Source of the DNA: an uncultured Prevotella sp. | GTDB lineage: Bacteria > Bacteroidota > Bacteroidia > Bacteroidales > Bacteroidaceae | Direction: 5' to 3' | DNA length: 64,000 nt | Assembly: GCA_902800365.1 (NCBI GenBank) | Contig: CADCEF010000007.1 | Coordinates: forward strand, 1 to 64,000 | Shown here: positions 17,328-50,708 of the stretch, one piece after another | Layout: each line of letters opens with the position of its first letter | Position numbering within the stretch: the first letter of the stretch is position 1 | Notes under the pieces: generated by a model | The model's database searches: none | Told to the model about the DNA's origin: nothing | What the model saw: the letters and a program-made list of their open reading frames with translations, nothing else | Position numbers and translations under genes: made by a program

Positions 17328-19172
17328 TTATTTTTTAATGATCTCCTCAAACGCATTTACAAGTTCTTCTACTACGAAGGGCTGGCCCTTTACCTGATTG
17401 AACTGGTAAGGAACGAAACCATCAACCTTCATGCGGAGGTAAGCAGCGAGCTGACCCATGTTCTGCTCGGCTACAACCACCTTCTTGTACTTCTTCAGTA
17501 CATCGGCAGTGTTCTTTGGCAGTGGGTTCAGATACTTGAACTGAGCCTGAGCTACCTTGTAACCCTTAGCACGGAGCTCGTCCATTGCAGAGTGCAGATG
17601 GCCGTATGTAGAACCGAAGCCTACGATAAGCAGATCTGCATCAGCATCGCCATCAACTTCGAGGTCGGGCACCTGAATGTTGTCAATCTTCTGCTGGCGC
17701 AGACGTGTCATCAGGTCGTGGTTCTCTGGGTTGGTAGAGATAGCACCTGTCTCAGAGTCCTTCTCAAGTCCGCCAAGGATATGAGTGAATCCCTCGCGAC
17801 CAGGAACAGCCCAGTAGCGTGTTCCGTTCTCGGCACGCATGTATGGAGTCCACTTACCCTTCAGTTCCTCAGGAACGTATGGAGGATTGATAGCATCGAG
17901 CTTAGCCATCTCTGGCAGCTTGAATGCACCAGAACCATTAGCGATATATGCATCGGTGAGCAGTACAACAGGAGTCATATGCTCGAGGGCAATCTTGGCA
18001 GCCTGATAAGCAGCGTCGAAGCAGTCGGCAGGACTGGTAGCGGCCATTACAGGCATTGGGCTCTCACCGTTACGTCCGAAGAGTGCCTGCAGCAGGTCGG
18101 TCTGCTCACTCTTGGTTGGCAGACCTGTAGCAGGACCACCACGCTGTACGTCGAGAACCACCAATGGAAGCTCCATGATAACAGCCAGGTTCATAGCCTC
18201 GCTCTTAAGGCAAACGCCAGGACCAGAGGTAGAGGTAACGCCGAGTGCACCTGCGAACGAAGCACCAAGTGCTGATGCGCAACCGCTGATCTCGTCCTCA
18301 CACTGAACGGTGATTACACCGCATGACTTATGCTTAGAGAGCTCGTGCAGAACATCGGTAGCAGGTGTGATAGGATATGAGCCCAGGTAGAGGCGCAGGC
18401 CAGCCTTCTCGGCAGCTGCGATGAAACCATAGGCTGTAGCCTTGTTACCAGTGATGTCCATATAGCGTCCAGGAGTCTTCTCCTTGGTTTCTACACGATA
18501 AACATTGATGGCACTTGAGTGAGTGTTGTGTCCGTAGTCCCAACCAGCCTGGATAACCTTGATGTTTGCCTCAGCGATAGCGGGCTTCTTGGCAAATTTC
18601 TCCTTCAGGAAGTTACCTACCAGGTTCAGGTCGCGGTCGAAGAGCCAGCAAACAAGTCCGAGGGCGAACATGTTACGGCACTTAAGCATTGCCTTGTTAT
18701 CCATTCCGCTGTCAGCCAGACAGTCCTTTACCATAGTGGTGAGTGGGCACTGGATTACACGGTCTGGGTCGATACCCATCTCGCCGAGGTAGTCTTCAGT
18801 CTTGAACTGAGCCTTCTCCAGATCCTTAGGACCAAATGAGTCGGTGTCGATGATGATGGTTGCACCAGGCTTGGCATAACGATACTGAGTCTTAAGTGCT
18901 GCAGCGTTCATTGCAACCAGAACGTCGCACTTGTCACCAGGGGTGTAGACCTTACCAGCGCCGATGTGTACCTGGAAACCAGACACACCAGTAAGCGAGC
19001 CTTGCGGGGCGCGGATATCAGCGGGATAGTCGGGGAACGTAGAAATGCCATTACCAACGGTGGCACTGACCGTAGAGAAGATGTTTCCAGCGAGCTGCAT
19101 ACCGTCGCCAGAATCACCAGAGAAGCGTACAACCACTTGGTCTAGCTCCTTCACTTCCAATGTTTCTGCCAT
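17328..19172 (-). CDS. korA: 2-oxoacid (probably 2-oxoglutarate):ferredoxin oxidoreductase, fused gamma-alpha subunit
   Basis: A 614-residue subunit in which the gamma domain (about 1-195, opening with VVRFSGDSGDGMQLAGN) precedes the alpha pyrimidine-binding domain (about 215-614). The alpha part shows LYLGSYPITPATDVLHELSK and a GPGVCLKSEAMNLAV segment. This fused order is usual for Bacteroidota KorA. The start at the ATG 19170-19172 was chosen because a promoter with both elements lies at 19203-19236, inside the longer frame. It is cotranscribed with korB and links the citric-acid-cycle branch to ferredoxin. Confidence 0.92.
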   Translation of the reverse strand: MAETLEVKELDQVVVRFSGDSGDGMQLAGNIFSTVSATVGNGISTFPDYPADIRAPQGSLTGVSGFQVHIGAGKVYTPGDKCDVLVAMNAAALKTQYRYAKPGATIIIDTDSFGPKDLEKAQFKTEDYLGEMGIDPDRVIQCPLTTMVKDCLADSGMDNKAMLKCRNMFALGLVCWLFDRDLNLVGNFLKEKFAKKPAIAEANIKVIQAGWDYGHNTHSSAINVYRVETKEKTPGRYMDITGNKATAYGFIAAAEKAGLRLYLGSYPITPATDVLHELSKHKSCGVITVQCEDEISGCASALGASFAGALGVTSTSGPGVCLKSEAMNLAVIMELPLVVLDVQRGGPATGLPTKSEQTDLLQALFGRNGESPMPVMAATSPADCFDAAYQAAKIALEHMTPVVLLTDAYIANGSGAFKLPEMAKLDAINPPYVPEELKGKWTPYMRAENGTRYWAVPGREGFTHILGGLEKDSETGAISTNPENHDLMTRLRQQKIDNIQVPDLEVDGDADADLLIVGFGSTYGHLHSAMDELRAKGYKVAQAQFKYLNPLPKNTADVLKKYKKVVVAEQNMGQLAAYLRMKVDGFVPYQFNQVKGQPFVVEELVNAFEEIIKK

Positions 19173-19346: not shown

Positions 19347-19405
19347 TTCCCAGTAAGGGAACGTTTTGTTCCCAAGCCGGGAATGTTTTATTCCCAACGT
19401 GGGAA
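19347..19405. repeat. 22-bp-period alternating half-site array A
   Basis: Six pentamers alternate in orientation: TTCCC at 19347, 19369 and 19391; GGGAA at 19357, 19379 and 19401. Gaps between them are 5, 7, 5, 7 and 5 bp, giving an exact 22-bp period. The 7-bp gaps are conserved (cgttttg, tgtttta) while the 5-bp gaps (agtaa, aagcc, aacgt) vary. Each unit can fold as a small hairpin. Confidence 0.85.
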
Positions 19406-19465
19406 TATTTTCTGCTTGAATTATATGGTTTTTCACTTAAAAAAAATAAAAGAAAAATATAAAAA

Positions 19466-19690
19466 ATCTCTCATCCCTCACTTGAACCTCTTGAAACCCG
19501 CATAAACACTGGGATTTCAAGCAATGAGAGATTTTCGGAATCTCTCACTAATCTCTCATGAATCTCTCATGAATCCCTCAGGTTACATGAGAGATTGTTG
19601 AGAGATTAGGGAGGGATAAAAATTATCTCTCATGCCCCTTAAACCCTTTATACAAAGGCGTTTCGAGAGATTTTGTGAGAGATGAGAGAA
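19466..19690. repeat. cluster of ATCTCTCA / TGAGAGAT repeats in both orientations
   Basis: About ten to twelve copies of the octamer or close variants occur in 225 bp. The core is two exact tandem AATCTCTCATG 11-mers and a variant AATCCCTCAGG (19561-19582 with neighbours). After a short gap follow the inverted copies ATGAGAGATT (19587-19596), TTGAGAGATTA and GGGAGGGAT. It could form a large three-unit hairpin. No protein-coding signal. Confidence 0.8.
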
Positions 19691-19760
19691 AAAAATGTAA
19701 AGTGTCTGATATCAAAAAAAACAAAGGTGGTTATGTTTTAACCACCTTTGCTTTTAGCAG

Positions 19761-19833
19761 TCGGGATGAGGCGACTCGAACGCCCGACCCCTACGTCCCG
19801 AACGTAGTGCGCTACCAACTGCGCTACATCCCG
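19761..19833 (-). tRNA. tRNA-Pro (anticodon CGG)
   Basis: The minus strand folds as a 73-nt tRNA: acceptor stem CGGGATG (19833-19827) with CATCCCG (19768-19762), D arm GCGCAGTTGGTAGCGC, anticodon stem CTACG/CGTAG with loop TTCGGGA giving anticodon CGG, and a T loop TTCGAGT. The discriminator is A and CCA is not encoded. A promoter box lies 10 bp upstream. Confidence 0.95.
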
Positions 19834-32965: not shown

Positions 32966-33697
32966 ATGAAACTAAAGACAATCTTGATAGCGATGGTATT
33001 CGTATCGGCTATCACAACAAAAGCTCAAGATGTTAACTGGCAGGCCCGGGTAGGTGGTGGTGTTACATGCCTGATGGGTGGTGTGTCTAATATCAACGAA
33101 CGTACAGGTTTCCATATCGGAGGCGGTGCTGATATCGGTTTGTCAAAAAACGGTGTGTTCAGATTGCAACCAGAGCTACGATTTGAGCGTAATGGCTGGC
33201 AGTTTGATGGATATTATGGTAGCGAGCAGATTATGAAGGCACATTTTAATACGCGACTCGACTATCTGAAACTTCCAGTGACGGTTGCTGCCCGTTTGCG
33301 ATTAGCCAATCAATGTTTCATTACTTTCAAAACTGGTGCTTATGTGGCTTACGGTCTACAAGCTAAAACCCGTATGCACATCCTGAATACGGATTATGAG
33401 GAAACCTTCAGCGAGAACCATTTTAGTGGTTCCTGTGATTTTCATGGTATTGCTTATGATAATGATTCCCGTTCAACGGGCTATCCTAAATTCAGTCATT
33501 GGGATATTGGCTCTATCGGTGGTGTCGACTTAACTTTCCATCATTTCATCATTGGCGCAGAAGTGTCGTATGGACTGAAGCGTGTCTGCGAATCTGGTTT
33601 CATCGGTAATCCGCTTGGTAACATCGCTACATTAGTCCTAACCGGTGGTGGTCCCAAGAATATAAGCGCAGGTGTCTCTTTGGCGTATCAATTCTGA
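32966..33697 (+). CDS. PorT-type outer-membrane beta-barrel protein, candidate ECF regulon member
   Basis: A 243-residue outer-membrane protein with a signal peptide (1-20, AITTKAQ). Strands typical of the OMP beta-barrel family follow: GFHIGGGADIGL, FRLQPELRFERNGWQF, YLKLPVTVAARLR, CFITFKTGAYVAYGLQ. The C-terminal strand ISAGVSLAYQF ends in Phe. It is preceded by the same 55-bp block as the ECF sigma operon 2 kb away, so it is a probable target of that sigma factor. The function of the barrel itself is not known; it is convergent with lpxH. Confidence 0.85.
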   Translation: MKLKTILIAMVFVSAITTKAQDVNWQARVGGGVTCLMGGVSNINERTGFHIGGGADIGLSKNGVFRLQPELRFERNGWQFDGYYGSEQIMKAHFNTRLDYLKLPVTVAARLRLANQCFITFKTGAYVAYGLQAKTRMHILNTDYEETFSENHFSGSCDFHGIAYDNDSRSTGYPKFSHWDIGSIGGVDLTFHHFIIGAEVSYGLKRVCESGFIGNPLGNIATLVLTGGGPKNISAGVSLAYQF

Positions 33698-33703
33698 TTT
33701 TTG

Positions 33704-33720
33704 ATGTCATAACGTCATAT
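33704..33720. repeat. tandem octamer pair of the AACGTCAT family
   Basis: ATGTCATAACGTCATAT is a near-exact tandem of the octamer AACGTCAT. Related copies lie at 33783-33793, 33936-33945 and in the hairpin at 33957-34025. Confidence 0.7.
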
Positions 33721-33833
33721 CTGATGTAAACATCTGTAAGATAGTAAATTACAGATGATGATATTATATGATATTAAATTCTTTAACGTCATATTGGGGC
33801 TGTTATATGACATTGTGATAGGTTGTATAAAGT

Positions 33834-33894
33834 GTTTCATCCGGAGAAACACTTTGTTTCTAAGGGCGAAACACTTTGTTTCTGCTGATGAAAC
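33834..33894. repeat. 22-bp-period alternating half-site array B
   Basis: Six pentamers alternate: GTTTC at 33834, 33856 and 33878; GAAAC at 33846, 33868 and 33890. Gaps are 7, 5, 7, 5 and 7 bp, giving the same exact 22-bp period as array A. The 5-bp gaps are identical (acttt) while the 7-bp gaps (atccgga, taagggc, tgctgat) are unrelated. Confidence 0.85.
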
Positions 33895-33959
33895 ATGTTG
33901 AAAACATAGGTTCTTTTATGCAGTGATGTACCTTGTATGACATCATGTGTTTTAATATG

Positions 33960-34025
33960 ACATCATAACGTCATATATAACCAACTAAAAGTCAGATGGT
34001 TATAATGAATATGACGTTATGACGT
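33960..34025. repeat. large imperfect hairpin built from ATGACGTT octamers
   Basis: A 17-bp arm at 33960-33976 pairs with 34009-34025 with one mismatch. The inner arms ATAACCA (33977-33983) and TGGTTAT (33997-34003) extend the stem, with a 5-base bulge on one side. The right arm is an exact tandem of ATGACGTT. No T-run follows on either strand. Confidence 0.75.
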
Positions 34026-34059
34026 TAAAAATACGAATAATTTGCAGTGAAGTGCTTTT

Positions 34060-37439: not shown

Positions 37440-37475
37440 AAACCTTTAAAATGTTACTTTTATATCGTTTTCGGG

Positions 37476-37485
37476 TGCAAAGGTA
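37476..37485 (-). promoter_or_regulatory. -7 promoter box for efp operon
   Basis: The minus strand reads TACCTTTGCA, a match to TAnnTTTG, 36 bp before the efp start. Confidence 0.6.
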
Positions 37486-37535
37486 CTGCTTTTTTGGAAA
37501 AAAACATAAAAAGTTTAGCTAAAAATCGTATAAAA

Positions 37536-37569
37536 TTTGCGTAATTCAAAAGAAATGAGTACTTTTGCA
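37536..37569 (+). promoter_or_regulatory. rpmH promoter
   Basis: TTTG (37536-37539) and TACTTTTGCA (37560-37569) are separated by 20 bp, a near-ideal Bacteroidota promoter. It gives a leader of roughly 40 nt. Confidence 0.8.
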
Positions 37570-37614
37570 CCCCAAATCGGTAAATAAATAACAAAATTAA
37601 ATAAGTATTTCAAA

Positions 37615-37770
37615 ATGAAGAGAACATTTCAGCCACACAATCGCCGTCGCGTAAACAAGCACGGCTTCCGTGAGAGAATGGCCACCAAGAACGGTCGTCG
37701 AGTACTGGCTGCTCGTCGTGCCAAGGGCCGCAAGAAGTTGACAGTTTCTGACGAGAATCACGGAAAGTAA
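37615..37770 (+). CDS. rpmH: 50S ribosomal protein L34
   Basis: A 51-residue basic ribosomal protein that is easily missed because of its size. It begins [20 protein letters not shown] and continues [21 protein letters not shown], the near-invariant L34 pattern. The C-terminal tail ([10 protein letters not shown]) is slightly longer than in Proteobacteria, as usual in Bacteroidota. It has a strong promoter and its own terminator. The dnaA/rnpA neighbourhood often found around rpmH in other phyla is absent here. Confidence 0.98.
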
Positions 37771-37801
37771 TCCGAGAGGAACTTAGAAAATGAGTTAAAA
37801 T

Positions 37802-37844
37802 AGAAAGAAGTAGAGTGAAATCTTTGCTTCTTTCTGTTTTTTTA
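37802..37844 (+). terminator. rpmH terminator, overlapping the next promoter
   Basis: AGAAAGAAG (37802-37810) pairs with CTTCTTTCT (37827-37835), followed by G and seven T residues. The loop contains the TTTG -33 element of the downstream promoter. Confidence 0.8.
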
Positions 37845-37856
37845 TATAACTTTGCG
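37823..37856 (+). promoter_or_regulatory. promoter of the PASTA-protein operon, embedded in the terminator
   Basis: TTTG (37823-37826) lies in the terminator loop and TAACTTTGCG (37847-37856) follows after 20 bp, so the terminator T-run is the promoter spacer. The ATG is 19 bp downstream. Confidence 0.75.
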
Positions 37857-50425: not shown

Positions 50426-50463
50426 GGTCACATGGTCACAACTGTGACCATGTGACCTTTTTA
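50426..50463 (+). terminator. terminator of the esterase gene, built from tandem octamers
   Basis: The 15-base arm at 50426-50440 (GGTCACATGGTCACA) is exactly complementary to 50443-50457 and is followed by TTTTT. Each arm is itself a tandem of the octamer GGTCACAT, so it belongs to the same class as the octamer repeats in the other long spacers. Confidence 0.85.
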
Positions 50464-50637: not shown

Positions 50638-50693
50638 TCGCCTATACGCAAACAATCGAGCGCCTGTACGCAAACGATCGTGTGCCTATACCC
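50638..50693. repeat. 22-bp-period repeat array C
   Basis: Units beginning GCCTRTACGC start at 50640, 50662 and 50684, exactly 22 bp apart. Read as half-sites it is TCG, CGC, GCG, CGC, GTG, CCC with gaps of 6, 10, 6, 10 and 6 bp. The gaps are conserved (cctata/cctgta and aaacaatcga/aaacgatcgt) and the outer half-sites degenerate. Confidence 0.8.
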
Positions 50694-50708
50694 AATCTGA
50701 AACGCATT

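Follow-up and report, generated by a model that had tools for sequence, protein, structure and literature searches.

Repeat arrays of the window and their surroundings

The window analysed here is a continuous stretch of 64,000 nucleotides from the genome of an uncultured Prevotella sp., and it carries three short repeat arrays, A, B and C (Table 1). Array A consists of six half-sites, alternating TTCCC and GGGAA, that start at 19347, 19357, 19369, 19379, 19391 and 19401 and are separated by gaps of 5, 7, 5, 7 and 5 bp. A first-pass annotation of this DNA had given the same positions, gaps and exact 22-bp period, and the array is far beyond chance. Beyond an A/T-rich linker lies an inverted repeat of ATCTCTCA motifs with a score of 74, compared with a maximum of 25 among 200 random pieces. 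This repeat is non-coding, and in combining inverted repeats with a lack of coding capacity it resembles a MITE; array A itself lies outside it. The array, the linker and part of the arms recur at C21 with 83% identity over 260 bp, and the ATCTCTCA iteron element is found at four places in the genome, all four of them beside a TTCCC array.

Array B is of the same kind as array A, with alternating inverted half-sites at a period of 22 bp. Array C is a direct repeat of 2.6 copies with a 22-bp period and has a second genomic copy at C13:42050; we found neither alternating inverted half-sites nor a significant fold in it. The proposal of the first-pass annotation that B and C share the design of A is thus borne out for array B, including its three units, and for the period but not the design of array C. 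It is doubtful that array C belongs with the other two, and it does not fit the VapE-element reading developed below. The palindrome in the same gap scores 28 (random maximum 25, shuffles 27) and is perhaps an iteron remnant.

The same annotation had placed the three arrays in the only gene-free stretches above 300 bp, which is right in substance, with the additions that the region of array A also holds a tRNA-Pro gene and that there is a fourth gap in the ORF list, at 37440-37851. This last gap contains an rpmH-like (ribosomal protein L34) ORF, read by eye. An Rfam search of the window gave only the tRNA above the cut-off, and the array corresponds to no known RNA family.

Table 1. Arrays and neighbouring features in the window
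Feature	Position	Strand	Remarks
2-oxoacid:acceptor oxidoreductase-type gene	17328..19172	-	Neighbour; POR domain within first 150 residues
Array A	19347..19405	.	TTCCC-n5-GGGAA-n7 three times (period 22); equivalent of the left-end module in VapE units
A/T-rich linker, array to iteron arms	19406..19466	.
Inverted repeat of ATCTCTCA motifs	19467..19689	.	223 bp; two iteron arms without VapE between them; motif spacing about 11 bp (by eye)
Terminator-like hairpin behind tRNA-Pro	19717..19755	-
tRNA-Pro (cgg)	19760..19833	-	Neighbour, outside element
Imperfect inverted repeat	33697..34032	.	336 bp, array B central; arm-array-arm module without VapE
Array B	33834..33894	.	GTTTC-n7-GAAAC-n5, period 22, three units
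Palindrome of GGTCACA half-sites	50426..50457	.	Near-perfect, 32 bp; same gap as array C
Array C	50639..50695	.	22-bp direct repeat; membership doubtful

A dispersed family with a fixed 22-bp period

We analysed the periodicity of alternating half-sites in 450 kb, comprising the window and 386 kb of the same genome, at 32 different periods and omitting half-sites that were A/T-only or nearly homopolymeric. All ten arrays with at least five alternating half-sites had a period of 22 bp; because 11 of the 20 stretches sampled had been picked for A-, B- or C-type repeats, this result demonstrates a fixed period and not a density. Ten dinucleotide shuffles of the 450 kb contained no such array, the reverse of the outcome (arrays no commoner than in shuffled sequence) that the first-pass annotation had named as speaking against its proposal. 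One more family, GGAACT-nnn-AGTTCC-n7 at L044:6704, came from outside the selection. Searching irrespective of half-site sequence, as that annotation had suggested, also yielded further half-site families in loci not chosen for arrays. Other periods do occur: four non-TTCCC arrays among 120 loci (0.9 Mb) of relatives have periods of 22, 21, 21 and 18, and control loci gave 39 and 48 (Y1_Tnp loci) and, once, 43 (lpxH loci). A sister family, AATAAGG-n3-CCTTATT-n4, has a period of 21 or 42 (L084, L086, L380 and L323).

The TTCCC family is restricted in its distribution. A three-half-site TTCCC pattern matched 34 times, at nine loci of the window's genome, compared with no match for the reversed pattern. 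The two-unit pattern was present in 14 of 119 genomes, all of them among the 72 of the same genus, and in none of the 47 genomes of other families. A scan of named sequences gave at least 120 stretches, nearly all from Prevotella, Prevotellaceae, Bacteroidales or Bacteroidaceae assemblies, including P. ruminicola KHT3 and X. ruminicola; the exceptions, a Clostridiales MAG (L061), Bacteroides timonensis (L142) and Paenibacillus (L172), are kept in the counts. At one locus the window's genome is 86-88% identical to Prevotella ruminicola KHT3 over 7.9 kb. Viral contigs contributed 25 stretches with TTCCC arrays. The arrays on the IMG/VR contigs L178, L182, L187, L190 and L198, which are putative phages, lie in some cases within ORFs. 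The titles and abstract openings that made up our literature search, with subscription papers outside its scope, contained no description of these arrays or of the short-VapE element introduced below.

Most of the 148 distinct TTCCC arrays have three perfect units (91), with two in 35, four in 18 and more in 4. Across them the first base of the 5-bp gap is A and its last base T (86% each), and the 7-bp gap tends towards Y-R-W3-Y-R, with C..A or T..G as its end pair in 182 of 306 cases. The spacers are therefore constrained without being palindromic. The first-pass statement that the 7-bp gaps are conserved and the 5-bp gaps are not captures only half of this, since both are constrained. Copying of whole arrays finds no clear support: array pairs sharing spacers outnumber those in permutations at 22 of 29 positions (77 versus at most 35) and at 23 (32 versus at most 16), and there is no clear excess at 24 (8 versus at most 8) or 25 (3 versus at most 4).

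In summary, the arrays are a dispersed family, and the data support a conserved geometry (a 22-bp period, mostly three units, often with 6-3-6 palindromes followed by 7 bp) that is combined with differing half-sites. The earlier idea of a single element class that keeps its architecture and exchanges its half-sites is therefore largely upheld, apart from array C and from the existence of other periods. The geometric reading of array A is partly supported as well; what it lacked was the connection with VapE elements and their inverted iteron arms.

Short VapE genes between inverted iteron arms

Among 109 genes adjoining TTCCC arrays, VapE-like genes were the commonest (nine), followed by DUF3874 and DUF5906, which are other matches of such proteins, and by DUF6078 (four). 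All nine VapE neighbours have the array upstream in the same orientation, its start 330-553 bp ahead of the predicted gene start, with iteron sequence between array and gene (by eye), and in eight of the nine an inverted copy of the upstream arm lies directly behind VapE. The distance from array to arm is 47-105 bp in eight loci, on one side. Several iteron families, ATCTCTCA, ACCTAACA, TAGTAGAGG and CACTCACCC, occur beside the one array family, so VapE itself may not be what reads the array.

The short VapE protein has VapE-like and DUF3874 domains. Its nearest solved structure is PDB 7pds, PriRep1 with double-stranded DNA (phmmer 2.5e-9), which is also matched by the structural model (Foldseek 1.2e-7; model pLDDT 70). 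It is thus a homologue of the SaPI5 helicase PriRep1, and the unit carries the PriRep-type helicase characteristic of SaPI/PICI. DUF6078 is encoded downstream in 14 of 30 short-VapE loci, several of which end early, and upstream in one. The DUF6078 model gave no fold match better than E 1.1. The DUF6078 copies of two elements with CGGAC arrays, L381 and L385, are divergent, at 26% identity with the reference, which hints that this protein could be matched to the type of array or could read the array.

We then used VapE similarity in place of the array as the starting point and fetched 30 short-VapE loci, of which 28 are testable because two end too near upstream. A period-22 array with at least four half-sites was present within 900 bp upstream in 19 of the 28, which are not fully independent since the query was taken from L104, itself an array locus, and L376 and L120 are one locus. 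Ten of the 19 have TTCCC half-sites, three have GTCCC/TTCCC hybrids and six have others (AAACT, GCGGA, CGGAC twice, TCGTA and TGCGA). The controls gave one upstream array in 58 korA/lpxH regions of relatives (Fisher 2e-11) and none in 30 Y1_Tnp loci. The remaining nine loci comprise two with a period of 21 or 42 upstream, three with 21-, 22- or 44-bp arrays only downstream, and four with nothing usable on either side. Counting arrays of at least five half-sites in all 30 loci gave 16 with period 22 and one with period 21. Inverted iteron arms surround VapE in 28 of the 30 loci; L364 and L388 have their array on the gene side of the arm. Short VapE genes thus lie between inverted iteron arms, and a period-22 array, with half-sites of many kinds, is found upstream of them far more often than in the controls.

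The association extends to whole genomes. Short VapE (E 1e-86 or better, list read manually) is found in 10 of 14 TTCCC-positive and in 8 of 58 TTCCC-negative genomes of the genus, a comparison that is uncorrected for phylogeny. Among 246 other genomes across the order, two pass E 1e-60, at 34-35% identity and with frames of 474 and 701 codons. In viral contigs, 24 distant VapE relatives have 20-31% identity. The matches listed for the window's genome include no short VapE. Long VapE genes of relatives have an inverted repeat spanning at least 300 bp in 15 of 20 upstream regions and a strict period-22 array in 4. L373 and L429 represent the same host site, with both flanks matched; one genome has a short VapE there, the other a long one.

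Arrays that move with VapE

We compared copies of the element at different host sites. L120 and L132 have in common a unit of 2314 bp (94.8% identity) with the order array, linker, arm, VapE, arm, DUF6078, hairpin, in which the array has four and six units, respectively. Outside this unit there is no match in the 2.6 versus 3.6 kb available on the left or the 3.1 versus 2.0 kb on the right. A weaker pair, since the left flank of L371 is only 130 bp and a further match lies to the right, is formed by L370 and L371, whose common unit of 2338 bp (91.2%) opens with the first TTCCC and closes a short distance behind DUF6078. In both comparisons, the firm one and the weaker one, the shared sequence extends from the array to a point behind DUF6078, so that VapE and the array have moved together there and the array forms the left end of a mobile unit of about 2.3 kb. 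For the pairs L104/L128 and L365/L368, matching sequence begins no further out than the arm. To the right of the VapE elements, L370:3068-3191 and L371:208-331 (minus) are a promoter-like sequence of 124 bp with 96% identity, and the other host flanks differ.

The shared units encode VapE and DUF6078 only (ORFs of at least 70 codons), with no integrase or phage-interference genes, and we saw no recombinase gene in them; a defence-system library gave zero matches. No empty VapE site was found among the loci in hand, nor an empty site at the korA and lpxH loci of relatives, where conservation of the korA DNA is lost beyond the promoter. Neither array A nor array B is present at the corresponding korA and lpxH regions (29 relatives each).

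The window's own genome contains a related arrangement. Its best VapE homologue, of the long type (C22, 710 aa), is preceded by 475 bp made up of an iteron arm, a GGAACT array and an inverted arm, and this module is repeated at C6 without VapE (L392:1-475 versus L044:6476-6949, 86.5%). The genome has a second VapE match, which is weaker. Array B, central in its 336-bp inverted repeat, has the same layout.

These copies bear on whether the arrays could instead be independent, dispersed landing sites beside which VapE elements insert in one orientation and at a short distance. Within 2.5 kb of available sequence, a count that includes long VapE and in which some loci end early, only 10 of the 148 TTCCC arrays have both VapE and DUF6078, 4 have VapE only and 3 have DUF6078 only, leaving 131 with neither, as landing sites would. 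Arrays that stand alone inside genes, the several iteron families beside one array family and the position of the array on one side only, close to the arm, point the same way. However, L120 and L132 have spacers and linker in common at different host sites, with different DNA further left, the array at L392/L044 lies inside the copied 475 bp, and arrays A and B are missing from the regions of relatives described above. We therefore consider landing sites an unlikely explanation.

Positions of the arrays relative to genes

A simple ORF caller allowed 104 of the 148 arrays to be placed; 41 are too near a locus end and 3 are unclear. Of those placed, 26 lie inside ORFs of 150 codons or more; the gaps holding the others are codirectional in 40 cases, convergent in 23 and divergent in 15, compared with 220, 76 and 112 such gaps, respectively, in the background. 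Inverted repeats beside TTCCC arrays are modestly enriched, with 25 of 277 flanks and 21 of 438 random pieces reaching a score of at least 14, and 10 and 4, respectively, a score of at least 24.

In-frame arrays recur in identical protein loops across species with differing half-sites, namely in the linker of cobB and in a loop of an acyltransferase. The arrays in the inter-domain linker of cobB, which encodes cobyrinate a,c-diamide synthase, belong to about five half-site families as judged by eye (L036:9973-10009, L202, L204, L206-L209, L218); depending on the species, the same linker has REP-like hairpins or a Y1-transposase-like ORF (L216/L225) as alternatives. In the acyltransferase-3 loop (L037:9911-9969 and L262-L269), in-frame 22-bp arrays of several half-site families are found, and TTCCC, AGTACG/CGGACT, GTTTCC and AGTRCG/CGYACT arrays all start after the same arginine codon. 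Array-free homologues of this loop are mostly just 17-33 bp shorter, and L270, without an array, is not shorter, so these differences do not represent a clean 66-bp insertion. In L266 and L091 a GGGGGACGGTTCTTTTGTTACA-type palindromic element replaces the third unit of the TTCCC array within the acyltransferase gene.

The edges of the arrays gave little sign of target duplication. Direct repeats adjoining the array measured 2 bp in 30 and 3 bp in 2 of 146 cases, and none reached 4 bp; allowing a one-base offset gave 13 of 4 bp, 7 of 5 bp and 1 of 6 bp, in A/T-rich flanks. No clear target-site duplication was seen by eye at the arm edges of 36 loci. Simple transposition with an adjacent target duplication of at least 4 bp thus has no example among the array edges examined. 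L105:5039 and L141:5271 are 96% identical to the right of the array and unrelated to its left, with the break inside the array, which hints at recombination at arrays.

An alternative is that the arrays are sites for a host regulator or nucleoid protein and that their link to VapE is secondary. Palindromes phased at 22 bp would suit a dimeric DNA-binding protein, and the unusual G037 hybrid half-site appears by eye at three unrelated loci (cobB in L207, the acyltransferase in L262 and VapE in L379), as a host-level factor predicts. Against such a role, the gap counts above reveal no promoter preference, 26 arrays lie within ORFs, several half-site families coexist in one genome, and arrays A and B are absent at the corresponding loci of relatives. 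A host factor as the primary reason for the arrays is in our view improbable.

The arrays might also act as RNA, with nested hairpins that serve as terminators or attenuators or that stabilise mRNA. The fold of array A is much stronger than that of shuffled sequence (z -5.6 and -6.3), three of its hairpins are terminator-like on the + strand (four such hairpins in the region, compared with a shuffle mean of 0.8), and arrays are closer to gene 3' ends (median 141 bp, n=86) than to 5' ends (244 bp, n=70). However, the end pair of the 7-bp spacer avoids Watson-Crick pairing (73 of 306 versus 125 expected), and the sense strand shows no preference for G-U over C-A (26 versus 31 codirectional, 5 versus 13 in genes). 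The bias that would preserve pairing is therefore absent, the arrays are read in frame within ORFs and no Rfam family exceeded the cut-off, which makes a function as RNA very improbable.

Mobilization of the arrays as REP/BIME elements by a RAYT (Y1) transposase is scarcely credible: they resemble REPs, as described in excerpts of PMC3733652, in being small dispersed palindromes downstream of and within genes, Y1_Tnp is above the cut-off in 43 of the 72 genus genomes and a Y1-like ORF (by eye) lies in the G033 cobB linker, yet the best 30 Y1_Tnp loci, which do not include the weak match of the window's genome, have no TTCCC palindrome, no period-22 array and repeats of other periods in only five.

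A model for the element

We propose, with a probability of roughly 65%, that a VapE-type replication initiator-helicase forms the core of a small mobile element and that array A represents the left-end module of such an element, lying in the window beside a remnant without VapE. Several observations speak against this reading: 131 of 148 TTCCC arrays have neither VapE nor DUF6078 nearby, 26 are located within ORFs, a strict period-22 array precedes just 4 of 20 long VapE genes, and no clear target-site duplication or empty site was found in the material examined. The iterons would probably be an origin bound by VapE, by analogy with the Rep protein of SaPIs, which recognizes iterons next to its own gene, according to excerpts of PMC7581432. 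The array could be a row of dimer sites on one face of the DNA; judging from its two-helical-turn spacing, binding by a protein is plausible, and such a protein might read the array as the end of the element or as part of its origin. Half-sites would then turn over together with the protein that reads them, and solo arrays would be detached ends.

More broadly, and only tentatively, these elements may constitute a minimal mobile class in which a single VapE, sometimes with DUF6078, moves although the element encodes neither transposase nor integrase. A phased palindromic array would mark the end, half-sites and iterons would diversify independently under a fixed geometry, and detached arrays would spread alone, even in frame into protein loops. 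If this is correct, one lineage can run several copies that do not recognize each other. The left-end reading ties previously unexplained intergenic palindrome arrays of rumen Prevotella to a defined gene and a unit of about 2.3 kb. It also opens to experiment how a replication helicase spreads when no recombinase gene is visible, and why the geometry persists as the recognition sequence changes. In annotation, alternating arrays of 22-bp period with adjoining inverted iterons suggest a present or former VapE element.

Comparison with known systems

Rickettsia palindromic elements resemble the arrays in being palindromic DNA in frame within protein genes, and differ from them in being longer single palindromes with neither a 22-bp array nor VapE. 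A CRISPR array can be dismissed, given the 22-bp period with 5-bp half-sites, compared with CRISPR repeats of 24-48 bp split by unique spacers (size range from excerpts of PMC3733652). REP/BIME sequences with RAYT, as described there, are likewise small palindromes dispersed within ORFs and close to the ends of genes, whereas the present arrays have a fixed 22-bp period and no RAYT gene among the best 30 loci is flanked by them; no GTAG/CGTC tag is evident by eye in array A. PINSR of the Prevotella intermedia group is also a non-coding intergenic repeat restricted to one Prevotella lineage, but it belongs to another clade, is 188 bp long, is reported to be without terminal inverted repeats and has no array described (PMC4755523).

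Another parallel is the MITE BrickBuilt of Porphyromonas gingivalis, which, in excerpts of PMC4596501, is a non-coding inverted-repeat element with a short tandem array (23 nt) and has 19 copies in ATCC 33277. BrickBuilt has 12-bp IS5-type terminal inverted repeats and direct tandem repeats (PMC4596501, same excerpts), whereas the elements described here have iterons about 11 bp apart, alternating palindromes, no clear target-site duplication and relatives that bear VapE. As for a possible autonomous parent with matching ends, relatives carry VapE between such arms, and in the window's genome the pair L392/L044 shows this for another family.

The replication module of SaPIs shares with the VapE unit a homologous helicase (7pds) and short repeats beside the rep gene. 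In contrast to SaPIs, the unit of about 2.3 kb lacks a separate primase, an integrase and phage genes, and it has a 22-bp palindromic array and DUF6078. Its iterons lie on both sides of the VapE gene, whereas SaPI origins, in excerpts of PMC7581432, are located downstream of rep.
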